In this document: in pieces, positions 1-10,991 of the stretch
How positions within the stretch are numbered: position 1 is the first letter of the stretch
Layout: each line of letters begins with the position of its first letter
NCBI RefSeq assembly: GCF_009765785.1
Contig: NZ_LMUT01000012.1
Span: 1,305,239 to 1,369,238, forward strand
Length of the DNA: 64,000 nucleotides
Origin: Granulicella sp. L46
GTDB taxonomy: Bacteria > Acidobacteriota > Terriglobia > Terriglobales > Acidobacteriaceae
Direction of reading: 5' to 3'
Made by a program: the position numbers and the translations under genes
The notes under the pieces: generated by a model
What the model was told of the DNA's origin: nothing
Database searches by the model: none
What the model saw: the letters and a program-made list of their open reading frames with translations, nothing else

Positions 1-1983
1 GGCTCGGGTAGCAACCTGCTCGCCGTAATCAACGACAATATCCCGGTTGATATTGCGGACGATGTGACTTTGGTGCGTGGCAAGCACCAAATCGGATTCG
101 GCGGTTCATACGTCCGGAACCAGCTCAATGTCAATAACGGATATGAGGCCAACGGTGACTTCACCTTCAATGGTAACTGGAGCGGACAGACCAAGCCCGG
201 TGACGCCAACCTAGATTTTCTTCAAGGCGCTTTGAGTGGCTTCTCGCAAAGCAAGGCGCAGCAGAATGCGCTGCGGGGATCAATGCCTACGCTGTACGTG
301 CAGGATACGTATCATCCAGTACCACGACTAACCCTGACGGGCGGCATTCGCTGGCTGCCGCTGTACTTTCCGCACGACTACTTCCATCGTGGAACGGTCT
401 TCAACATGGCGGCGTTTCTGGCCGACCAGCACAGCACCGTGTATCCGAATGCTCCCGCCGGGACGTTTTACTATGGCGATCCAGGTGTTAAGCCTGCCTT
501 CACGGGAAATACGCCCTTGGAATTCAATCCGAACTTCGCTCTTGCATACGATGTTTTTGGAGACGGCAAGACTATATTCCGCGCTGGCACAGCGTATGCC
601 TATAATATGCCGAACTTCTTTGTCCAGCAGCGTGTGCAGCAAGATCCGCCTTTTTCGGCGCTCGTTTCGCCAAATACTGCTGCGGAGTTGTGCTTCAGTG
701 ATCCATGGTTGGTTGGGGGCACGGGGAATGCGGGATGTGGTCAAACGGGGGGCAACGACACATTCCCAGCATCCATTCTGCCAGGGACTCCGACTCCTGC
801 AAACGCGGTCTTCTCCCAGCAGAGCCAATATATCGTGTTGCAACCTACCTACAAGATGCCCAATACCATGCAATGGACCGCCAGCATTCAACAGGCTTTT
901 GCGCGGGGCTGGACAGTTCAGTTTTTCTACACCGGCAACCGTACACAGGATCAACTCGTCGGTATCCCACTTAACCCGGCAGTGTACACGCCCGGCGTAT
1001 GGGGACCAGGTGGTACCGGTTGCGGACCTGTAGTTACAACCGGCCCCGCTGCAGTCGCGTCCCACACCGTCGGCGGCGGCGTAGTCGGTGCTCCTTGCTC
1101 GGTCAACGGTACCAACCAAAATACCAGCAAAGGCATTTACAACAACACTCAAGCACGTTACGCGCTCACTGAGGCCAACCCGACGCAGGGGAACTATTAC
1201 AGTGGGGGCAGCGGTGGCTCACTCATTGAGTCCAACTCCGCGTATGGTAACTACAATGGCCTGACTGTGACCGTGCAGCATCGCTTCTCTTCAACGTTCA
1301 ACTTCCAAACCAACTACACTTGGTCCAAGTGCCTTAACAACGCCGATCCTCAAGGTGACCTCAGCGGAACTCAATTCTCGAATCCCAATAATCCAGCGCT
1401 CGACTATGGTCGCTGTGGGTCAGATATTCGCCATAACTTCAACACCACCATTGTGGTTAAGAGCAATTTTCCGCTGAAAGGCATTAGTCGTTATATCCTA
1501 AATAACTGGGAACTGGGCGGCTTATTCCGCCTCGTTAGCGGCACGCCGTTCACGGTCACAGAAAACCAGGACGAATCGTTCACGGCCAATGGCGGTGACC
1601 GCCCCAATCTGGTTCCGGGGGTCCCGATCTACAACTACACGAAGATACTCTCCGATCCTGGGGGAGCTACCTATGCTACCCGCTCTTATTTGAATCAGGC
1701 TGCCTTCGTCTTAAACACCGTACCGGGAACCCAAGGAAACATCAGTAGAAACTCTTTCTCCAACCCAATCTATTTTCAGAACGACGCCCAGATTACGCGG
1801 ATATTTCCACTTCACAGCAGACTCGATCTGTATCTTCGACTGGAAGCGTTCAACGTGCTTAACCACCCATCTTTTAGCAGTGGTAATAACAGTGGTCCTT
1901 CCTTTACGGGAAACTTCGGCGAGATCACAAGTACATCAGTTGGCGGCAGAGTCTTTCAAGGCGTTATCAAAGTACTCTTCTAG
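1..1983 (+). CDS. TonB-dependent receptor, Oar-like, C-terminal part (5' end outside window)
   Basis: The reading frame is open from base 1, so the gene begins upstream of the window and only the last ~660 residues are visible. The sequence is rich in Asn, Gly, Thr and aromatic residues in alternating patterns typical of an outer-membrane beta-barrel. It ends in Phe (VIKVLF), as outer-membrane barrels do. A segment near the end (LYLRLEAFNVLNHPSF) is characteristic of the large Oar-like receptors expanded in Acidobacteria, which carry an N-terminal carboxypeptidase-regulatory domain; that domain would lie outside the window. Such receptors are thought to import oligosaccharides or other bulky ligands with TonB energy. 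The substrate cannot be told. The family call is firm. Confidence 0.85.
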   Translation, partial: GSGSNLLAVINDNIPVDIADDVTLVRGKHQIGFGGSYVRNQLNVNNGYEANGDFTFNGNWSGQTKPGDANLDFLQGALSGFSQSKAQQNALRGSMPTLYVQDTYHPVPRLTLTGGIRWLPLYFPHDYFHRGTVFNMAAFLADQHSTVYPNAPAGTFYYGDPGVKPAFTGNTPLEFNPNFALAYDVFGDGKTIFRAGTAYAYNMPNFFVQQRVQQDPPFSALVSPNTAAELCFSDPWLVGGTGNAGCGQTGGNDTFPASILPGTPTPANAVFSQQSQYIVLQPTYKMPNTMQWTASIQQAFARGWTVQFFYTGNRTQDQLVGIPLNPAVYTPGVWGPGGTGCGPVVTTGPAAVASHTVGGGVVGAPCSVNGTNQNTSKGIYNNTQARYALTEANPTQGNYYSGGSGGSLIESNSAYGNYNGLTVTVQHRFSSTFNFQTNYTWSKCLNNADPQGDLSGTQFSNPNNPALDYGRCGSDIRHNFNTTIVVKSNFPLKGISRYILNNWELGGLFRLVSGTPFTVTENQDESFTANGGDRPNLVPGVPIYNYTKILSDPGGATYATRSYLNQAAFVLNTVPGTQGNISRNSFSNPIYFQNDAQITRIFPLHSRLDLYLRLEAFNVLNHPSFSSGNNSGPSFTGNFGEITSTSVGGRVFQGVIKVLF

Positions 1984-2244
1984 CTGGATCATCGCTGGAT
2001 CAACAATTCACTTCAAAACAAATGCTCCGCCTGCGATAAGCTTGCGGAGCATTTCCTTCATCGAAGTTGATATCGACAATGAGGCAGCGTAGTTTTCGCT
2101 TCTATATTTACTTGTGGAGATGTTTTTGTGAACAGAACGGCATAGTAGCCGGTTGTTCACAAAAACGTCGACCTTTCCATTGATGCCTACGGATGTTTGC
2201 AGCAGAGCCTCAACTTGCGCGCGATTTATTCTCTCGCCGGACAA

Positions 2245-2406
2245 GGTGGTGAACGGATTTTGCTCAGGCTTGTCGGCGTTGTAATAAGACTTGTTGGGCG
2301 CGATCCAGTTCGAAGCGATGGCTTCCTACGCTATTGCTAGTTGGAGATTGCCTCGGCAGACTAATTCCTGGAGTTGGTTTTCGAGCTGGTCTTTCACTCG
2401 GGTATT
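2245..2406 (-). pseudogene. Decayed C-terminal fragment of a small conserved (HNH-like/'WPEP'-type) protein
   Basis: Read on the - strand, this stretch gives a conserved-looking segment, TRVKDQLENQLQELVCRG, then an in-frame TAG at 2326-2328, then EAIASNWIAPNKSYYN in the same frame. From memory, this matches the C-terminal pattern of a widespread family of small secreted proteins (charged helix, VC-x-G, then AxxxIAxxWxxAY). The upstream half is missing or out of frame. The in-frame stop and the absence of a start make this a relic. It is the only recognisable content of 1984-2699, a stretch of more than 700 bases with no intact gene, which fits the ragged edge of an accessory region. Family identity is from memory only. 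Confidence 0.35.
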
Positions 2407-2699
2407 CCAGGTAGACGAGTACGGGTGCCGTCCGGTGTCGCCCGGCAATGAGAGGCAATCTCTTCGCCAAGATTCTTGAAGGCAAGCAAGAGTGAGCGCC
2501 GGACGGGCCCTCCGACATCGGAGTGGTTGCATAGGCTCTGGGTGACATCGTTGCCATTTTCTAGGATCATATCTTCAGCGGGGCCGAGTTTGAGTGCGGC
2601 TGTCGCTCGGTGTCGCGCTTTCACCAGCCGACCCCGTCCTTACTGTCTCTCTGCGATTTTGCAACTCCCCGTTGAGTCGTCCTAGGAGAAGCCCTCGCT

Positions 2700-4259
2700 A
2701 TGTATAGCCCTGTCGGCTCTGCAGACATCATTGCTCGGATTGAACATATCCGTGAGCTCCATCGGCAGATAGAGAGATCGAGGGATGGGAACCGACTCGC
2801 GCACGACCGACGCGAGCAGAAGATACGAGATTTCATCTCGAACCTAAGACGTGCGGGAAGTCGCCCGACGGCCAATATGGTACGAGGCCTCGAGGAAACC
2901 TGTTCTCTGACAACAGACGGTGCATATCGGCTTTTCGGCTACGAACTTGACGGCGTTCGAGAATTTGACCTTCTTCTCAACGGCGGCCGTACCCACGTCG
3001 TCGAATACTATGTATTCGATCGAGACCTGATGGTGGAGCTACCATTAGAACTTGCTCCCGCAGAAGCATTCCGGCGCAGCGCCATGCTCGACTCCTTGGT
3101 TCTGCGGTGGCAAGGCAATTTCCCTCTACGAGTGTTAAATGGGCCCATATGGCGTCGGTCCGGAACGTTTTACGTGCATGTGGGAACAGAGGACAGTTTG
3201 GGTTCCAGCATTCCGCCCGGAGCCACTGCACTTGTCGAGCCCATCGATCAAGAAGAGACACTCCGGCCGAATCCCCGCAACATCTATCTTCTCCAGTTTC
3301 CGAATGGGTATATTTGCAGCCGCTGCGTCGTGGCCGGAGGGAAGCTGCAGCTCTTGACGTCGGACCGATCCTATCTCGGTCGGCAGATCTTTTCCTATCC
3401 CATGTCCCTGCGCATTGTGGGACGCATCGGCGTGTTCGCGCTCGGACTACCAGCACCCGATTTTCCGTTCCAACGTCCAATTTCACACTTTGGCGGAAGC
3501 GCGAACCTGGTACTTCCGTGGGAAAACAGAACGCGTCACAACCTGTTCGCGACGAAGCACAGACGGTTTATCCGGCCACAGGAAGAGAAAGCGCACGTGG
3601 AAGAGCTCCTGCGGTTGATGTTGCATTCGAAAGTGAGTGATCGATCAAGACGGCGATATCGCCGCGAAACAGACTCGGAACCTCATATTGCGTCATTGAT
3701 TCAGATGTCCATCGAGCACAACTCTCGATACAGTGACGCACTGACAGTAGGCGGATATCGGCTACGCGATTCGGGTCGATATTCTCTCGAAACGCTTCTC
3801 CGAGCCACGCATTACGAAGATCTGCCTTGGGTTCGTTCCGAACCGGCGCACCCCATTCCTCCAGAGGTATGGGAGGCAAGGCGGAAAGAGATCGTTGAGT
3901 GGCCGGCGCTGTTCTCACTGAAGTTCCCCCGACCGAGCTCGTGGAGCCATCGAGTCATTCGCATTGGAGAGGGAGACGACATTCGCGGCGTTAGCCCACC
4001 CATCCGTTCCGGGTCTTGGGTGCTGACGGAAGAACTCTCAACTGTGCCCGACACCCGAAGTGACGCCAGTAAACACGGTTGGTCCCGTCCGCTCTATGTT
4101 TTCTCGAAAGGACTGAATATGGTCTTTGGGCACCTGGAACGTGATGGAAGCAATTTCGCATTGCTGAACGACCCTGGTTCGCAATCCACAAAGTTCGTGT
4201 TTTCTCAGAGCGAGCTTCCCAACCTCCGTCGCATCTGCGGAGTTATTGCTCCCGTTTGA
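2700..4259 (+). CDS. S24/LexA-fold-like protein of a RiPP-type cluster
   Basis: 519 residues starting at an ATG 10 bases after AGGAGA. The N-terminal ~100 residues are charged and helical and may include a helix-turn-helix. Residues ~125-255 look like an S24/LexA-type beta domain: a run ending IPPGATALVEPI, then YLLQFPNGYICSRCVV, then RIVGRIGVFALGLP. A second, weaker copy of that layout is near the C terminus (IRSGSWVLTEEL, later LRRICGVIAPV). I see no clear Ser-Lys dyad, so proteolysis is doubtful and a regulatory or peptide-binding role is as likely. It is the first gene of a + strand group with a PqqD-like protein, an APH-like kinase and a truncated B2 protease. The S24 assignment is by eye and function is unknown. 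Confidence 0.5.
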   Translation: MYSPVGSADIIARIEHIRELHRQIERSRDGNRLAHDRREQKIRDFISNLRRAGSRPTANMVRGLEETCSLTTDGAYRLFGYELDGVREFDLLLNGGRTHVVEYYVFDRDLMVELPLELAPAEAFRRSAMLDSLVLRWQGNFPLRVLNGPIWRRSGTFYVHVGTEDSLGSSIPPGATALVEPIDQEETLRPNPRNIYLLQFPNGYICSRCVVAGGKLQLLTSDRSYLGRQIFSYPMSLRIVGRIGVFALGLPAPDFPFQRPISHFGGSANLVLPWENRTRHNLFATKHRRFIRPQEEKAHVEELLRLMLHSKVSDRSRRRYRRETDSEPHIASLIQMSIEHNSRYSDALTVGGYRLRDSGRYSLETLLRATHYEDLPWVRSEPAHPIPPEVWEARRKEIVEWPALFSLKFPRPSSWSHRVIRIGEGDDIRGVSPPIRSGSWVLTEELSTVPDTRSDASKHGWSRPLYVFSKGLNMVFGHLERDGSNFALLNDPGSQSTKFVFSQSELPNLRRICGVIAPV

Positions 4260-4477
4260 CAACCCCGTCGTCGAATCAGGCCTCAAGATAGTTTGGCCAA
4301 ACGAACGCTTCGTCTGCACAGCATAGAGAGCAATTCAGATTGCTAAGCCTCGCAGATGCAGGAGCGAAGTAAGTTTGGCCAGCAGCCCTGTTTCCGCTTG
4401 CATCCGAACGGCGACAAGACCATGCTCACTTCCACCGACCTTCGAGCCCGAATGGTTCGGTACCCGGGAGTACATGT

Positions 4478-4753
4478 ATGGCCGATGGCAACGCTCAGCT
4501 GAAGACCATCGTCAATCAGGACGGAGCAGCAATCCTCGACGCGATGAGGGGCACGATCTCCACGCTGAATTCAACTGGGGCATACATCTGGCGCGCACTG
4601 GAGGTTGGCGAGGCGGTGGAAGACATCGTCGCCACGCTTGGACGAGAGACGGGGGAACGCCCAGACACCATCCGGCTTGATGTAGACAATTTCATCGCGG
4701 CGTTGCGAGAACACAACTTATTGCCGCAGTTGAAAGAGGGGAAACGCGCATGA
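4478..4753 (+). CDS. PqqD-family RiPP recognition protein (lasso B1-like)
   Basis: 91 residues. The core TISTLNSTGAYIWRALEVG followed by a helix (VEDIVATL) and a C-terminal helix (DVDNFIAALREHNLL) is the PqqD fold. In lasso-peptide and other RiPP pathways such proteins bind the leader peptide and deliver it to the modifying enzyme or leader protease. GGGAG lies 7 bases before the ATG, supporting this start. The stop overlaps the start of the next gene in an ATGA, so the two are probably translationally coupled. It pairs naturally with the truncated B2-like protein 1.4 kb downstream. No convincing precursor was found beside it. The family call is strong; the peptide substrate is unknown. Confidence 0.8.
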   Translation: MADGNAQLKTIVNQDGAAILDAMRGTISTLNSTGAYIWRALEVGEAVEDIVATLGRETGERPDTIRLDVDNFIAALREHNLLPQLKEGKRA

Positions 4754-6132
4754 CTCACGTCTTGACTCCTGATGCAGTCACCTTTCGCGTTCTTGTGGTC
4801 GTCCCTTCATCACACAAGGTCTTGGTGCAAGAGGATGGTGGTCCACTTTGTGTCTTGCGGGTTTCCATAGCGCCGAGAGGCCGTCTTGCGCAAGAGCTGC
4901 GGCGCGAACTGGGTCGATTGTGGGACGCAGACGTTTTCATCCTGGACTTCCTACAGAGTGGTGAAGATCGCAGCCCGCTTGTCGTCGCGGAACTTCTGCC
5001 AAGAACGATTCCAGCCGAGCTCCCGACCGCGTATCTGGATCAGATCCCCGAGGATGAAGTCTCCGAGCTTGAACGCGCACTATTTTTTCGCATGCTCGGC
5101 CGTGACGCAAACTGCCCTGTCTCCCGTATCGGATGGAGAAACGAAGCCGTCGCCTGGGCGGAGGACGTAACAGGCGGTCGACTTCATGCCGAAGCAGCAG
5201 TCGAGCAACACAATGCTGGCGGTCTGTTCACGTTGCTTCATCTTCGTATGGAAGATGGACAAAGTTACTGGCTGAAGGCGACGGGTGAGCCAAACATTCA
5301 CGAACGGGAGATCACACGGCTATTGTCCACGTTGTGCCCTCGCTCTCTTCCCCACATCGTCGCAGAAATGCCCGCATGGAACGCATGGTTGATGAAGGGA
5401 GACGGCTGTTCCCTTCCCGCGTTGCCGACGGAACCGAAGCGTTTGGTGCAACTACTACGGCGGGCCGTCGAATCGCTGGCAGAACTTCAACTCGCGTCCA
5501 TCGGCGCGGAGTCTGAGTTGTTCGCTGCGGGTGCTTTCGATCAACGGCCGCATGTCCTCCGAGCGAATCTGGATGGGCTTTTTGCTTATCTTGGCGAGGC
5601 CATGTTGCTTCAGAGCTCGACCAAAGTGCCGCGTATTGGCGCGGGCAGGCTGCAAGAGATTCGAGAGTTTCTGAGCAGAGCGCTTGATCACGCGGAGCGC
5701 CTTGGCATTCCGTCGACGATCGTGCACGGCGATATGAATCTGGGCAATCTTGTATTTACAGAGGATAGTTGTCACCTCATCGACTGGTCCGAAGGTTACA
5801 TTGGGCATCCACTCGTGACATTTCAACACCTTCTCCTTCTCAACCCGGTAGAGAACCCGCAAGACAAAGCTTCTGTCGAGAACGCCTTGAAGGAGATTTA
5901 CCAGACCGCCTTGTACTCGGTGTGTGATTTCCGCCAGATAGAAGAAGGTTTCTCTTGCATGGCGCTCCTAGCTGCCTTCTCAACGCTCTACGGACGAGGT
6001 GACTGGCAGCACAGAGATCCCGGAAATGATCCGCAGTGGCAACGATATGCGCGCTCTATCACTCGGTATATGGACCGGTACGCTCGCGATCCGTGCCTGC
6101 TGGAATCGCTTGGCGTTCGATCTAACGGCTAA
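4750..6132 (+). CDS. Aminoglycoside-phosphotransferase-fold kinase of the RiPP-type cluster
   Basis: 460 residues. The C-terminal two thirds (from ~170) form an APH/choline-kinase-like kinase: the Brenner motif HGDMNLGN lies at about residues 325-332 and the metal-binding LIDW about 15 residues later. The N-terminal ~150 residues are a separate domain that I do not recognise. The start overlaps the PqqD gene stop (ATGA). Kinases are known as tailoring enzymes in some lasso-peptide clusters, though those described are HPr-kinase-like. An APH-fold enzyme between B1- and B2-like genes could phosphorylate a peptide or a small molecule; this is inference from context. Alternatives are antibiotic or metabolite phosphorylation. 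The kinase fold is confident and the substrate unknown. Confidence 0.65.
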   Translation: MTHVLTPDAVTFRVLVVVPSSHKVLVQEDGGPLCVLRVSIAPRGRLAQELRRELGRLWDADVFILDFLQSGEDRSPLVVAELLPRTIPAELPTAYLDQIPEDEVSELERALFFRMLGRDANCPVSRIGWRNEAVAWAEDVTGGRLHAEAAVEQHNAGGLFTLLHLRMEDGQSYWLKATGEPNIHEREITRLLSTLCPRSLPHIVAEMPAWNAWLMKGDGCSLPALPTEPKRLVQLLRRAVESLAELQLASIGAESELFAAGAFDQRPHVLRANLDGLFAYLGEAMLLQSSTKVPRIGAGRLQEIREFLSRALDHAERLGIPSTIVHGDMNLGNLVFTEDSCHLIDWSEGYIGHPLVTFQHLLLLNPVENPQDKASVENALKEIYQTALYSVCDFRQIEEGFSCMALLAAFSTLYGRGDWQHRDPGNDPQWQRYARSITRYMDRYARDPCLLESLGVRSNG

Positions 6133-6173
6133 TCAGACGGCCTTCTGTTCGAGGACCGGGAGAGTACGCGGCG

Positions 6174-6524
6174 ATGAGACAAGTAACGGTTCGATATATT
6201 CTCGCAGGCTGGTTGTTGCTGCTATACCTTGACTGGCTCATGCGCTTCGCTGGCTTCACAAGCGTCTATGAAGCTGTTCGTCGGCAAACCCTCAGGAGAG
6301 AATCGGAGACCTACGCAGGTGACGGTGTCCTGTCTCATGCAGTGGATCTCGCCTGCGTCTTCTACCCCAAACGCGTGCTATGTCTCCAGCGTTCTGCCGC
6401 GCTGGCGGTTCTCTTACGACGTAACGGCAGGGCTGCGGAGATGATCATCGGAGCGCAGCTGCTTCCCTTCCTCTCTCCTCGCTTGGCCATGTCGATGCAC
6501 CTCTTACATCGACTGCCCGGTTAG
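6174..6524 (+). pseudogene. Lasso-peptide B2 (McjB-type) transglutaminase-like protease, 3'-truncated
   Basis: The ORF starts at an ATG behind GGAGAG. The N-terminal part contains a hydrophobic helix (residues 8-20). Residues 60-98 match the McjB/Transglut_core3 core: CVFYPKRVLCLQRSAAL, with catalytic Cys70, then RRNGRAAEMIIGAQLLPF. In intact proteins the next residues are HAWVE, carrying the catalytic His, followed by the Asp. Here the sequence instead runs LSPRLAMSMHLLHRLPG and stops, so two of the three catalytic residues are missing. The last 21 bases overlap the end of the convergent pilin gene, so truncation probably came from a recombination junction near 6470-6506. In function B2 proteins cut the leader from the precursor. 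This copy is probably inactive. Confidence 0.65.
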
Positions 6525-6854
6525 GCTGCCTATCCATCCGGCTCCCCAACCGAGAACTCCGGCACCGAAAAGAGCGCCGAAAAGTCCTGGTATAGCATCC
6601 TGGAAACGACCGCTCATCATGCGAATTCCAGCGAAGATTAACCCGCCAAAACAGATAATCGCACCGGCGTATATGGCGAAAGTTTTGAAGGTTGACATCA
6701 GCGTTTGCGCTCCGGAGAAGTCCATCGTTCCCTGCGCGTTTGCAACCGCGGAGAGAGAAATGGCCAGGAGAACGGGCGCGATGGCGCGCGCATGATGAAG
6801 GATTGGATTGCGTTGTATCCAACGACGAAGCTTGAAACGGGGTCTACGAGACAT
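6504..6854 (-). CDS. VirB2/TrbC-family conjugal pilin
   Basis: 116 residues from the ATG at 6854, chosen because GGAGG sits just upstream of it; an ATG 12 bases further up is too close to that site. The protein has a basic N terminus, a long signal sequence ending in NAQG, and two hydrophobic helices (TFAIYAGAIICFGGLIFAGI and a Gly/Ala-rich second one) separated by the short polar loop RMMSGRFQDA. This is the layout of TrbC/VirB2 pilins of type IV secretion. No other T4SS gene follows. The gene's 3' end abuts the truncated B2 gene, so it seems to be a leftover of a conjugative module or a cut end of one. Confidence 0.75.
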   Translation of the reverse strand: MSRRPRFKLRRWIQRNPILHHARAIAPVLLAISLSAVANAQGTMDFSGAQTLMSTFKTFAIYAGAIICFGGLIFAGIRMMSGRFQDAIPGLFGALFGAGVLGWGAGWIGSLTGQSM

Positions 6855-6919
6855 TGGCACCTCCATCGGCTGGGGTCAGCCGAGATATGCCGTGATCATG
6901 GGGCCGCTCGGGGCCGCTG

Positions 6920-6993: not shown

Positions 6994-8004
6994 CTAGCCA
7001 AGGAGGCGCAATTGAATCGGTCCTTCTTCAGTCGTTGAAACGCTGGCGTTCGGTCGTTTCATCGCGGTTCTGCCCGCGGTCAAAGCAATCTCACTGTCAT
7101 TTTGCGAAATTTCCCTGCCGAACTGTTTCTTGAATTGGCGGACAAGGATTGGGATCGTCTTTGGATGTCGTTGCTTGTGATAAATCAGGGCAGTGTCGAT
7201 AGTCCAATCAATGCCGACAACCGGACGCGTCGTCAACTGATCATCCAACGTCATGCCTTCGCGGATCAGAGCCACACCAAACCCGTCTCGGACGAGAGCC
7301 TGCATTTCGGACGGATGCGAAGCCCTTGAGTAATCCCGAATGTGGACGCCGACGGAGCTCAGCCGCTCCACCAAACGGTCATGCGCATCCGGATGTTTCT
7401 GCGGGTGATAGAAGATCCTCAGGTGCTCCTCCAGATCTCCGACGACGAGGGCGGCTTTGTTTGCGAGCGGACTATCTTTGCGCATGCAAACAACAAGTCG
7501 ATCGCGCCGAAGTTCTTCTACATGGATGTCGGGATGCTCCAAGGGTAGGGTTACGAGAGCAATATCCACGACTCCCGCTTGAACCTCCTCGATGAGCTGG
7601 TGCACGTCGCCATGCGTGGGACGGACACCAGCTGACGGCACAAGTCTCTTGTGCATGGAGCAGAGTTCGCGAAAGAGCTCTTGATCGACAAGCGAACTCG
7701 AACCGGAACAGATCGACACAATCTCTCCACGTTCGATCGCCACGATCGCGTCAATGACCTCGTTTCTTACCTCCAGCACATAGCGCGCAAGGCCTATGAA
7801 TGCGTCACCAGATTCGGTTGGACGAATGTGCCCTCTCTTCGTCTTGCGAAACAAACGCACGCCGGCGTTGTCCTGGAACTGCCGTGCCTGCACCGAGAGG
7901 TTGGGTTGGGAAGTGTGAAGTTCTTCTGCGGCCGCGCGAAGTCCGCGCTTTTCGAGAATAGCCAGGAGATAGCGAAAGTGACGAAACTCTGCCCAGTCGT
8001 ACAT
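6994..8004 (-). CDS. LysR-family transcriptional regulator
   Basis: 336 residues from the ATG at 8004, preferred over an upstream start at 8037 because AAAGGA precedes it. The N-terminal winged helix-turn-helix reads FRYLLAILEKRGLRAAAEEL then HTSQPNLSVQARQF, typical of LysR regulators. The rest is a substrate-binding-like effector domain (for example DIALVTLPLEH and FGVALIREGM). The gene lies between a conjugal pilin gene and excisionase/integrase genes, all within the putative integrative element, and copies of a dyad-containing repeat flank it. It probably controls element genes, perhaps pilin expression and its own; the effector is unknown. Confidence 0.85.
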   Translation of the reverse strand: MYDWAEFRHFRYLLAILEKRGLRAAAEELHTSQPNLSVQARQFQDNAGVRLFRKTKRGHIRPTESGDAFIGLARYVLEVRNEVIDAIVAIERGEIVSICSGSSSLVDQELFRELCSMHKRLVPSAGVRPTHGDVHQLIEEVQAGVVDIALVTLPLEHPDIHVEELRRDRLVVCMRKDSPLANKAALVVGDLEEHLRIFYHPQKHPDAHDRLVERLSSVGVHIRDYSRASHPSEMQALVRDGFGVALIREGMTLDDQLTTRPVVGIDWTIDTALIYHKQRHPKTIPILVRQFKKQFGREISQNDSEIALTAGRTAMKRPNASVSTTEEGPIQLRLLG

Positions 8005-8185
8005 GCCACGTCCTTTCGAAACGGAACTGTACGTCAATCACAACAAATGACTTCCTTTTTAGATCGTCACAAGAAGGGATGGGAACTGCAACTGGAATGG
8101 AACGCCTCGGCCAAGAATACTTCGCGCTGTCCACAGTGGTACTGAGGGGATCATCTTCACAGTGGTGGATAAAGGAGTTCGTCGA

Positions 8186-8377: not shown

Positions 8378-8614
8378 ATGTCTTCAACATGGACCAACCC
8401 AACACCCGTTGAGCCAGTTCTTACCGAAACCTTCCTCACGGCGAAGGAGGCGGCACATATCGCGAGGTTGCACCCTGTAACTCTGTTGCGATGGGCGAGA
8501 GAAGGAAGGGTTCCACATCGTCGTCTGAGTTCCCGCAAGATCGTTTTTCCACGGGCCCAACTCGTAGCGTGGCTGGAATCCGGCTACACTGGCAGCACCG
8601 TTCGTGCCGCCTAA
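8378..8614 (+). CDS. Excisionase-family helix-turn-helix protein
   Basis: 78 residues; AAGGAG lies 7 bases before the ATG. The segment FLTAKEAAHIARLHPVTLLRWAREGRVPHRR is the MerR-like helix-turn-helix of the excisionase/'helix-turn-helix domain 17' group, followed by the usual beta wing and LVAWLES. It ends 18 bases before the integrase gene, in the same direction, so the two are very likely co-transcribed. Small proteins of this kind act as recombination directionality factors or as regulators of the adjacent integrase. Confidence 0.8.
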   Translation: MSSTWTNPTPVEPVLTETFLTAKEAAHIARLHPVTLLRWAREGRVPHRRLSSRKIVFPRAQLVAWLESGYTGSTVRAA

Positions 8615-8632
8615 CCCGAAAAGGATAGGTGC

Positions 8633-9802
8633 ATGAAAATGATCCATAAGCGAAGCCGATATCAGGCTGGATGTTTGACAATTGAAAAGAGACGGACAGG
8701 AGCCGAGGTATACACCTTTCGCTGGCGAGAGCCAGCAGCAAACGGCGGAACAACGCAACGTAGAGTCGTACTCGGCTCGGTTAAAGAGCTGAGCAAGGCA
8801 CAGGCGAGAAAGAAGGCCGATGAGTACCGGCAGCATGCAAACGCTGCGCCGCCGGTCGAATCTAAACCCTCCATCACCGTCGCGGAACTTGTGGAGCATT
8901 ACAAGGAGCGAGAACTCGGCGAAAGCGCAGATAAAGCTGTCAAGGTTATCAAAGCCTACAAATATATCTTCGCGAATTACGTCATCCCCAAATGGGGCGC
9001 AGTTCCGCTGGTAGAGGTAAAGCCAGTCGCGGTCGAAGATTGGCTGAAGTCGCTCAAAAAAGCGAACGGGACGCGGGCCAAGATTCGGGAAGTGTTCGGC
9101 GCAGCTTTTCGCCACGGCATGCGCTACGAACTTTACGCAACCAACCCTATCGCCCATGTACGCCAGGCACGCAAGAGAGGTGCAGAACCAACAATCCTAG
9201 AACCCGAGGAGTTGGCAGCCATTCTGCACGAACTTGAGGGTGTCGAGCCGGTTCGGACAGCATTTCTGATCGGAGCGATCATGGGGATGAGACGAGGCGA
9301 GATTTTCGGCCTCAAATGGGCCGACATCGATTCCGGACGTGCGATTCTGCATGTCCGGCGATCCTTCGTCGACGGCGTGGAGGGTCAGCCCAAAACGGAC
9401 TCGTCCCGCCGCCCGCTTCCGCTTCCACCACAAGCCTTGGAAGCTCTTATGGCCTGGAAGACGCAGTCGTCCTACGCTACCCCAGGTGATTGGGTGTTTG
9501 CGTCTGACCTGTCCTTCGGCAAACAGCCCCTGTGGCCAGGCACTCTATGGCGCAGAAACGTCGCTCCAGCCGTCCTTCGAGCTGAGATCAACAAACCGAA
9601 GCTGGGATGGCATACGCTGAGGCGCACGTATGCGTCCCTGCTCCTGGCGACAGGGGCAAGCCTCAGAGTGAGCATGGAGCTCATGCGGCACTCCACAGCG
9701 GAGATGACGCTGGCTACGTACGCTCAGGCTGTAGGGGATGAAAAGAGGGGCGCTGGAGAAAGAGTCGCTTCTGTGGTGCTTCCCAAGGGAAAAGTCGCTT
9801 AG
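8633..9802 (+). CDS. Tyrosine site-specific integrase
   Basis: 389 residues. An N-terminal arm-binding part is followed by a SAM-like core-binding domain (ITVAELVEHYKEREL onward) and a C-terminal catalytic domain. The catalytic set is visible: Arg in GMRRGEI, His-x-x-Arg in HTLRRTYAS, His in MRHSTAEMT, and the Tyr nucleophile in LATYAQAV. It ends 77 bases from the 3' end of a tRNA-Ala gene and points at it, the classic arrangement for elements that integrate at tRNA 3' ends. The protein appears complete. The other attachment site is not visible in the window. Confidence 0.92.
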   Translation: MKMIHKRSRYQAGCLTIEKRRTGAEVYTFRWREPAANGGTTQRRVVLGSVKELSKAQARKKADEYRQHANAAPPVESKPSITVAELVEHYKERELGESADKAVKVIKAYKYIFANYVIPKWGAVPLVEVKPVAVEDWLKSLKKANGTRAKIREVFGAAFRHGMRYELYATNPIAHVRQARKRGAEPTILEPEELAAILHELEGVEPVRTAFLIGAIMGMRRGEIFGLKWADIDSGRAILHVRRSFVDGVEGQPKTDSSRRPLPLPPQALEALMAWKTQSSYATPGDWVFASDLSFGKQPLWPGTLWRRNVAPAVLRAEINKPKLGWHTLRRTYASLLLATGASLRVSMELMRHSTAEMTLATYAQAVGDEKRGAGERVASVVLPKGKVA

Positions 9803-9852
9803 TGTTCCTTTATTGTTCCTTCGTTGCTTTGGGCTTGCTTATTGTTCCCTTG
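9803..9852. repeat. Three TGTTCCTT-like direct repeats between integrase gene and tRNA
   Basis: TGTTCC followed by TT or CTT occurs at about 9803, 9814 and 9844, between the integrase stop and the tRNA 3' end. Short direct repeats in this position can be arm-type binding sites of tyrosine integrases. The sequence is simple, so chance is possible. Confidence 0.3.
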
Positions 9853-9878
9853 GATTCAGTCTAACTATTTGATTTGAT

Positions 9879-9954
9879 TGGTGGAGCTGAGCGGGATCGA
9901 ACCGCTGACCTCCTCGTTGCGAACGAGGCGCTCTCCCAGCTGAGCTACAGCCCC
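9879..9954 (-). tRNA. tRNA-Ala (anticodon CGC)
   Basis: On the - strand this is a full cloverleaf: acceptor stem GGGGCTG/CAGCTCC with one G-T pair, D arm, anticodon stem CCTCG/CGAGG around loop TTCGCAA (anticodon CGC, reading GCG = Ala), T arm with GGTTCGATCC, discriminator A and an encoded CCA at 9879-9881. The body without CCA is 9882-9954. Its 3' end faces the integrase gene and is the probable attachment site. 9955-10082 beyond it holds nothing I recognise. Confidence 0.95.
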
Positions 9955-10082
9955 ACACCAGAGATCGTGACAACAGATCCATTTGGATTTTGCCACCCGG
10001 TTAGTTTAGCAGGGCATGACCCTGATAACCAAGTCGGAACTTCAATTCGAGCGCGCAGTCAGCACTCCGTTCATAACGGCGA

Positions 10083-10991
10083 TCACGGCCGTTTCGGAGC
10101 TACCAGGTGCATCTCTGCCATCACCCGCTGCAGATCCTTCCAGGCCTCAGCTTTCTGCCGAGGATCCCGAAGTAAGAAAGCAGGATGATAGGTGACGGCA
10201 ACCTTGGCACCACGGACCGAATGCCACTGCCCCCGCAACGAAGCCAGCGATTGCTTCACCCCAAGCAGATAGGTCGCAGCCGTAGCCCCGAGCGCAACAA
10301 TCACCTCAGGATGCACGATATCGATCTGCCGGACTAAGAATTGCGAGCACGTGGTTGCTTCTATAAACTCCGGCGTTCTATTTCCCGGAGGACGGCATTT
10401 AACAATATTTGCGATGTAGACCTCTTCTCGCTTCAGGCCCATCGCCGCAATCATATTGTTCAATAGCTGGCCAGCCTTTCCCACGAACGGAAGGCCGCTG
10501 GCATCTTCGTCTGCACCTGGGCCTTCGCCAACGAACATAAGCCGAGCGTTGGAATCTCCATCTCCGAAGACGATCGTCTTGCGCCCGGCATAAGCAAGAG
10601 GGCAGCGCGTGCAATCGCCGATCTCCGCCCGAAGCGATTCCAGCGCCGCTAACCGATCAGCAGCAGGAACAGTACGCGTGGGCAGAGGCGCGAAAGCATC
10701 CAATGAGGGTGGTTTAGCCATCGGTGAGGGAAATTCTGATGATATATCGGGAGGGTCCAGAGGGGACGCAGCAGCAAAATGCGGCGCTGGCTCTGCAACA
10801 TGTGAAGGTACATACCGCGGTTCGGCTATCTCTGATTGCGCAGTTGCGGAAGGCTTCTCTCGCAATCCCTCCGGAAACGAAACCGTCGGATGATCCCGGT
10901 AGAAAAGATCATAGACACCCATATCACGCAGGTACTCGACATACGCGCCGAGTTGTCGTTCGAGGTCTACCTCAATCATCTCCGCAATCAC
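10083..10991 (-). CDS. Family 4 uracil-DNA glycosylase
   Basis: 302 residues. The catalytic part (from ~115) has the family-4 signature: iron-sulfur cysteines C127 and C130 (CTRC) and C199 and C215, the active-site motif GEGPGADED at 155-163, and HPAFLLR near the C terminus. It removes uracil from DNA to start base-excision repair. The N-terminal ~110 residues are a variable Pro/Ala-rich extension preceded by a short helical segment (EVDLERQLGAYVEYLRDMGV); such extensions occur in related 'phage-type DNA polymerase N-terminal' proteins. The GTG start overlaps the stop of rpoZ by 4 bases (GTGA), so the genes are coupled; an ATG 12 bases downstream is an alternative start. Confidence 0.9.
   Translation of the reverse strand: MIAEMIEVDLERQLGAYVEYLRDMGVYDLFYRDHPTVSFPEGLREKPSATAQSEIAEPRYVPSHVAEPAPHFAAASPLDPPDISSEFPSPMAKPPSLDAFAPLPTRTVPAADRLAALESLRAEIGDCTRCPLAYAGRKTIVFGDGDSNARLMFVGEGPGADEDASGLPFVGKAGQLLNNMIAAMGLKREEVYIANIVKCRPPGNRTPEFIEATTCSQFLVRQIDIVHPEVIVALGATAATYLLGVKQSLASLRGQWHSVRGAKVAVTYHPAFLLRDPRQKAEAWKDLQRVMAEMHLVAPKRP

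Follow-up and report, generated by a model that had tools for sequence, protein, structure and literature searches.

Acidobacterial lasso peptide clusters of the type B1-APH kinase-B2-C-A have been published before, as have Ile/Val(-2) precursors. Duan et al. (2023, PMC10368454) report precursors with isoleucine or valine at position -2 from Acidobacteriaceae, and state that all Ile/Val(-2) clusters found by those authors encode a kinase or phosphotransferase. A second source (PMC9064862) lists an acidobacterial biosynthetic gene cluster (BGC) from a soil metagenome, BGC 482.1, with B1 (PqqD), a 1404 bp 'kinase' of the aminoglycoside phosphotransferase family, B2, C and two A genes. An antiSMASH lasso cluster is reported for Granulicella sp. 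WH15 in PMC7074687. Here we analyze a related locus in a 64,000-nucleotide stretch of the Granulicella sp. L46 genome (the window), which lies on a 1.65 Mb contig (C5) of a 5.48 Mb genome in 39 contigs (G000). Its four genes encode a LexA/CI-like protein of 519 aa (S519), a PqqD-type protein (B1), an APH-fold kinase and the start of a lasso leader peptidase (B2). The locus is a truncated lasso cluster, mostly of the ordinary kind and in decay, and no new peptide-modifying system. We are confident that it is the front part of an Acidobacteriaceae lasso cluster, carried by a once conjugative element that is linked to a tRNA gene and has probably lost its interior by deletion; in intact relatives, such clusters are probably controlled by S519.

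The identity of the locus is clearest from its relatives. We examined 25 distinct loci in which the S519 gene is complete, almost complete or broken in frame: the window, a second copy on contig C21 of the same genome, L017, L018, L019, L021, L022, L068, L070, L071, L075 and L135-L148. Left out were L069, L072, L073 and L074 (on contigs equal in length to those of G022, G312, G013 and G146), a frame-broken S519 gene at G221:C2:2982892-2984443 and shorter S519 fragments. By tblastn, 18 of the 25 have the order S519-PqqD(B1)-APH kinase-(S9 peptidase)-B2-lasso cyclase (L017-L019, L021, L022, L068, L070, L071, L135, L137-L139, L141, L142, L144 and L146-L148). In L018, the cyclase matches NF033535, the lasso peptide isopeptide bond-forming cyclase (E 2.3e-73, 248 bits against a cut-off of 525), the next protein-coding gene matches NF033523, the Atxe2 isopeptidase (E 6.4e-55, 187 bits against a cut-off of 400), and a receptor-like gene matches OMP_b-brl_4. 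An isopeptidase and an outer-membrane receptor accompany the cyclase in 17 of the 18 loci; the 20 kb of L019 showed neither. In L019, S519 and the kinase are frame-broken. The kinase of L071 is in two pieces. The S9 oligopeptidase (OpdB-like) lies between kinase and B2 in seven of the 18 (L021, L022, L070, L138, L141, L142 and L148). L020 is a lasso cluster with a cyclase and two precursors and without S519.

The precursor gene, a short one 3' of the cyclase with products such as MRYIQPKITGTFPAISTIQ-SEKNSPSLEGNGVLPSTINAYQADE, could be recognised in 16 of the 18 cyclase loci; our patterns missed L135 and L147. The leader carries a YxxP motif, and in most leaders Ile or Val stands close to the expected -2 position, which suggests a cleavage site near Ile/Val(-2). 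Several cores are acidic at residue 9 (GPKIFTPHE in L071); others do not plainly fit a ring of 7-9 residues. A second precursor-like match, with one stop codon, lies at G015:C10:45867-46001, on a different contig from the main cluster of that genome.

The window copy stops inside B2. An earlier note on this DNA, made from the letters alone, had described four plus strand genes with an ATGA overlap and PqqD (B1) and McjB-type (B2) signatures. All four are open reading frames (ORFs) where that note placed them, and matches to PF05402, PF13471 and NF033537 confirm the signatures. What the note had missed is that B2 breaks off at about codon 101, ahead of its HAWVE motif, and that the end of its reading frame runs antisense to what is left of a type IV secretion system (T4SS) gene. 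Where B2 of intact relatives continues PFxSHAWVE...VNDKPY, the window and C21 read PFxSPRLxMSMHLLHRLxG. This tail is antisense, in the window, to the region just downstream of a pilin gene, where the minus strand holds the start of a virB3-like gene; a single point cuts both genes. The virB3-like gene was named by position and size. It follows the pilin in 17 of 20 pilin loci, always with at least part of virB4 (the exceptions are L050, L058 and L066). The window B2 keeps the Cys of LCLQRS and lacks the His of HAWVE and the later Asp of VND; Cys, His and Asp form the catalytic triad of McjB-type enzymes.

No working set of the missing parts was found in the genome. With the L018 cyclase as query, no lasso cyclase was found in the whole of G000, window included. 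The same query hit 11 of 12 genomes, with E 1e-140 or better in nine and with distant relatives only (26-30% identity) in G001 and G261. In G000, PF00733 has three weak matches, PF13471 has just two (both of them the truncated B2 genes) and the isopeptidase query has one distant match (26% identity). A precursor profile found nothing in G000 and G001 and matched the other six of the eight genomes searched. Searching the window for precursor patterns turned up a single chance match (8459, minus strand) and, with a second pattern, none. These searches agree with the earlier observation that neither a precursor nor an asparagine-synthetase-like cyclase is apparent in 1984-6524. Two candidates for missing parts were rejected: an ORF in the gap between S519 and PqqD as precursor, where no conserved frame was seen, and the outer membrane protein (OMP) gene at 64-1983 as lasso receptor, which has only 28.9% identity, to lasso OMP residues 800-1037. 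The left flank of the latter gene resembles sugar metabolism, with gene names read by eye. Compared with what a lasso cluster requires, the window copy has B1 and lacks the full B2 triad, cyclase C and precursor A. Its pathway cannot make a lasso peptide.

The four-gene block recurs in the same genome and in relatives, which is beyond chance. The second copy in G000, on C21, has the same junction, and the two kinases are 41% identical. Pilin relatives occur in 20 of the 61 genomes searched, all of one genus; 8 of 10 pilin loci scanned have a tRNA gene and several have an integrase. In the window an integrase lies beside a tRNA gene, and of the T4SS just the pilin and a few virB3 codons remain beside the integrase. 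The tRNA-Ala gene is the likely attachment gene of the element. No attachment (att) repeat was found for the window within the stretches searched, where a 70-nt hit was the query itself. The att search covered eight sequences (the window with flanks, C21, L058, L061 with L018, L123, L124, L125 and L121), among which L124 alone was notable. There, a 17-nt tRNA-Asp repeat (213-5604) occurs with an integrase, a LysR gene and fragments of pilin and S519, pointing to a small element some 5.4 kb long. In G013 an intact lasso cluster and a partial T4SS share a contig, with about 2.6 kb from the receptor to a truncated virB4, and in G022 a single contig holds both the T4SS and the lasso cluster, separated by about 80 kb. 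Genes for an ECF (extracytoplasmic function) sigma factor and an anti-sigma-like protein lie between receptor and truncated virB4 in G013 (L061 1393-3468).

Several loci share a junction, at positions that, judged by eye, differ by no more than a few nucleotides. The window and C21 (junction near 5290 of L008), both in G000, join B2 codon ~101 to virB3 codon ~5. L058 and L050, both in G001 and 80% identical, join S519 codon ~210 to virB3 codon ~5. L123, L124, L125, L127 and L132 join S519 codon ~100 to pilin codon ~61. As far as the junction, C21 has 92.5% identity to the G013 cluster, and 88.3% on the T4SS side; L058 and the G022 element are 99.3% identical over 300 nt to the left and 99.0% over 1600 nt to the right. 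A common ancestral deletion does not easily fit L058 and C21, both of which seem to have arisen recently from intact elements. Our preferred guess is that junctions are copied between co-resident elements by homologous recombination, because both B2 junctions are in G000 and both S519-virB3 junctions are in G001. Short homology was rejected as the cause: when five intact clusters were compared with one virB3 break site in an ungapped scan of 16-mers, B2 did not stand out. That diverged deletion derivatives have near-identical junctions is the remaining oddity. A third S519 fragment in G000 (about residues 1-102) lies in L128 (G000:C9:9426-9611 and nearby), without a pilin match in 8 kb.

S519 looks like a LexA/CI-type protein related to helix-turn-helix (HTH)-S24 proteins. 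The S24/LexA fold named in the earlier note is borne out by residues 99-254, which match LexA, UmuD and CI. The note called the protein a double S24-like one; its C-terminal half may or may not hold a second such domain. Helices lie between residues 7 and 93. Members have no HTH match save one to Crp at E 0.095; five of six relatives match HTH families, all below Pfam cut-offs, and the profile match to one relative starts at residue 46. S166 is invariant in 11 members. Unlike LexA, CI and UmuD, with which it shares the S24-like fold, S519 has an additional C-terminal half and reads CSRC, FGRC or FSRC (CSRC in the window) in the region of the catalytic Lys. This region was placed by eye against LexA. 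Among lasso-peptide papers on S24, LexA or Acidobacteria, none of the titles listed points to an S24/LexA-like gene in lasso clusters. In another bacterial family of the class, L107 has two tandem HTH-S24-like genes (8591-10399) next to genes for a cyclase and B2 and to S9-peptidase-like, ABC-transporter-like and PqqD-like genes (names partly our own reading).

The gap between S519 and PqqD contains a conserved DNA element. The 8-mer TTTGGCCA, the core of GTAAGTTTGGCCA, occurs in 20 of 23 gaps (19 of 22, plus L144, which was added later); L075 and L145 have no PqqD, hence are outside the count. It is the most widely shared of all gap 8-mers, the next unrelated one occurring in 6 of 23. On either strand there are 25 sites in 5,704 nt of 22 gaps and 25 sites in 454,954 nt outside, or 4.38 versus 0.055 per kb, an 80-fold difference for a motif derived from the same loci it was counted on, some of which are close relatives (C21/L018, L141/L142). 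In 19 loci one site lies 91-121 nt 5' of the PqqD start (a tblastn-based start for many loci), including those with gaps of 846-868 nt (L141, L142). The element is missing from the 400 nt before PqqD in four lasso loci or fragments that have no S519 (L020, L023, L107, L119). The window holds two copies, the first a perfect GTTTGGCCAAAC palindrome; pairs 82-84 nt apart are found in the window, L017, L135 and L137. From this distribution GTAAGTTTGGCCA is a probable operator, and S519 may be the protein that binds it.

The 460-aa protein is an APH-type kinase by fold, as the earlier note had called it, and has the Lys and the catalytic HxD-N-D motif of APH-fold kinases. K176, D328, N333 and D345 are invariant in 11 aligned members. 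Its N-terminal domain (about residues 1-118) matched no Pfam family. The domain looked Nudix-like, a resemblance not borne out: neither Nudix nor any other Pfam family matched it consistently over 11 members at E 1. The kinase matches Pfam APH and APH-type folds and is not a member of the HPr-kinase-type family of characterised lasso kinases (ThcoK/BsfK). Another APH-fold protein from a pathway for ribosomally synthesized and post-translationally modified peptides (RiPPs) has the fold in common; its pathway is different and the sequence match is far below its cut-off. Phosphorylation of the precursor is plausible, an idea that is not new for this lasso type (PMC10368454, PMC9064862).

In intact relatives, B1 would bind the YxxP leader and assist the kinase in phosphorylating the precursor, as has been demonstrated in Bradymonas for a kinase of a different type. 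B2 would then cut off the leader near Ile/Val(-2) and the cyclase would close the ring, while the receptor and isopeptidase may import and open the product. S519 would control the operon through GTAAGTTTGGCCA, about 100 nt 5' of B1. In the window, an internal deletion appears to have brought B2 codon ~101 up against the beginning of the virB3-like gene, with loss of the rest of B2, the cyclase, precursor, isopeptidase and receptor and most of the T4SS.

The earlier note had proposed a different peptide-modifying system or, equally, a lasso cluster minus its cyclase and precursor. The second proposal stands, with a cyclase in 18 of 25 S519 loci and a recognisable precursor in 16 of those 18. 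The first falls to the refuting condition that the note itself had set, since intact relatives carry these genes, and the S24/LexA protein and kinase accompany the usual parts and do not replace them. A free-standing four-gene system, with the kinase in place of the cyclase, is very improbable: two copies in one genome with the same gene set and end, and with open upstream frames, speak for it, but B2 has lost its catalytic residues in both, no precursor was found near either copy or in the genome, the C21 copy agrees, as far as the junction, with an intact cluster that has a cyclase, and two genes are interrupted together where the junction lies. Two sets of loci do weigh against our interpretation. 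Seven of the 25 have no cyclase, being deletion derivatives, at a contig end or S519 alone: the window and C21 (B2-virB3 junction), L136 (PqqD, then a pilin fragment), L143 (a kinase fragment, then an OMP fragment), L140 (contig ends after PqqD), and L145 and L075 (S519 alone). The operator-like element is also absent in three S519 loci (L143, L146, L147). It is hardly credible that the junction is an assembly error, even in a genome of 39 contigs, given the same junction on two large contigs and analogous junctions in G001, which is a single contig.

A less likely but serious possibility is that the lasso pathway is dead and its front genes are kept for another job, with S519 (perhaps also the kinase) serving the element or host, for example in regulation or immunity. 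Between C21 and L018, dN/dS (the ratio of nonsynonymous to synonymous substitution rates) is 0.21 for S519, 0.24 for PqqD, 0.32 for the kinase and 0.37 for B2 codons 1-94, with no stops or gaps; the values of 0.21-0.32 for the front genes would fit such a role. So would the S519 5' fragments that persist beside the pilin in five other loci of five genomes, and the operator-like element kept in both the window and C21. Against this, relics may stay open if recent, and the C21 truncation may be young. Between the window and L068, synonymous sites are saturated or nearly so. We are more doubtful still that S519 is a new lasso-linked family of LexA-like regulators with its own operator, GTAAGTTTGGCCA, on elements that lose their interior by a directed process and give rise to small integrase-bearing lineages; the junctions shared by diverged copies (the window and C21, L050 and L058, and the five loci with an S519-pilin junction) would fit this reading.

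A truncated lasso cluster on a mobile element removes the false lead of a cyclase-free RiPP system. The APH-fold kinase is a possible lasso-precursor kinase. The LexA-like gene and probable operator that head many Acidobacteriaceae lasso clusters are a potential handle to switch on silent clusters, and the recurrent junctions are sites where lasso cargo is lost from mobile elements. Features of the window locus are given in Table 1.

Table 1. Features of the lasso-derived locus and adjoining genes, in window coordinates
Feature	Position	Strand	Remarks
S519, LexA/CI-like protein, 519 aa	2700-4259	+	No Pfam or NCBIfam match; one of 25 distinct loci examined. Helical N-terminus alignable with HTH-S24 proteins; residues ~99-254 S24-like in fold; middle of low confidence; ~419-518 a beta domain that may or may not be S24-like
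Perfect palindrome GTTTGGCCAAAC	4291-4302		Upstream copy of operator-like element
GTAAGTTTGGCCA, operator-like element	4369-4381	+	Core 104 nt 5' of PqqD start
PqqD-type RiPP recognition element protein (lasso B1), 91 aa	4478-4753	+	PF05402, E 4e-15
APH-fold kinase, 460 aa	4750-6132	+	Pfam APH, E 1.7e-9; ATGA overlap with PqqD gene
Lasso B2 ORF, 116 aa	6174-6524	+	PF13471, E 1.4e-11; NF033537, 39.9 bits (cut-off 33)
5' part of lasso B2 leader peptidase gene, within that ORF	6174-6478	+	
Junction	6473-6490	-	First codons of virB3-like T4SS gene (ATG GCC AAG CGA GGA GA) fused to B2
T4SS pilin-like gene	6504-6866	-	Overlaps B2 end on opposite strand; own Pfam match weak (E 0.14), named from relatives
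LysR-type regulator gene	6994-8037	-	Kept beside pilin in many relatives
Excisionase-like protein	8378-8614	+	
Tyrosine integrase	8633-9802	+	
tRNA-Ala (CGC)	9879-9954	-	Adjoins integrase

Among known systems, clusters with an Atxe2-type isopeptidase and an outer-membrane receptor are of the astexin type. The intact relatives have isopeptidase and receptor-like genes in common with this type (the NF033523 match), and are unlike it in having a kinase and S519 and in encoding B1 and B2 as separate genes. The bsf cluster of Bradymonas sediminis and the Acidobacteriaceae clusters both have Ile/Val at -2 and a kinase or phosphotransferase (PMC10368454); BsfK is HPr-kinase-like, in contrast to the APH fold here, and bsf also has an ABC transporter and a nucleotidyltransferase. 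BGC 482.1 is also among the closest known systems. It is complete and has no S24/LexA-like gene in the rows listed for it, whereas the window lacks the B2 tail, C and A (PMC9064862). In that same listing, its gene order B1-kinase-B2-C-A is the order of the S519-type clusters (PMC9064862).

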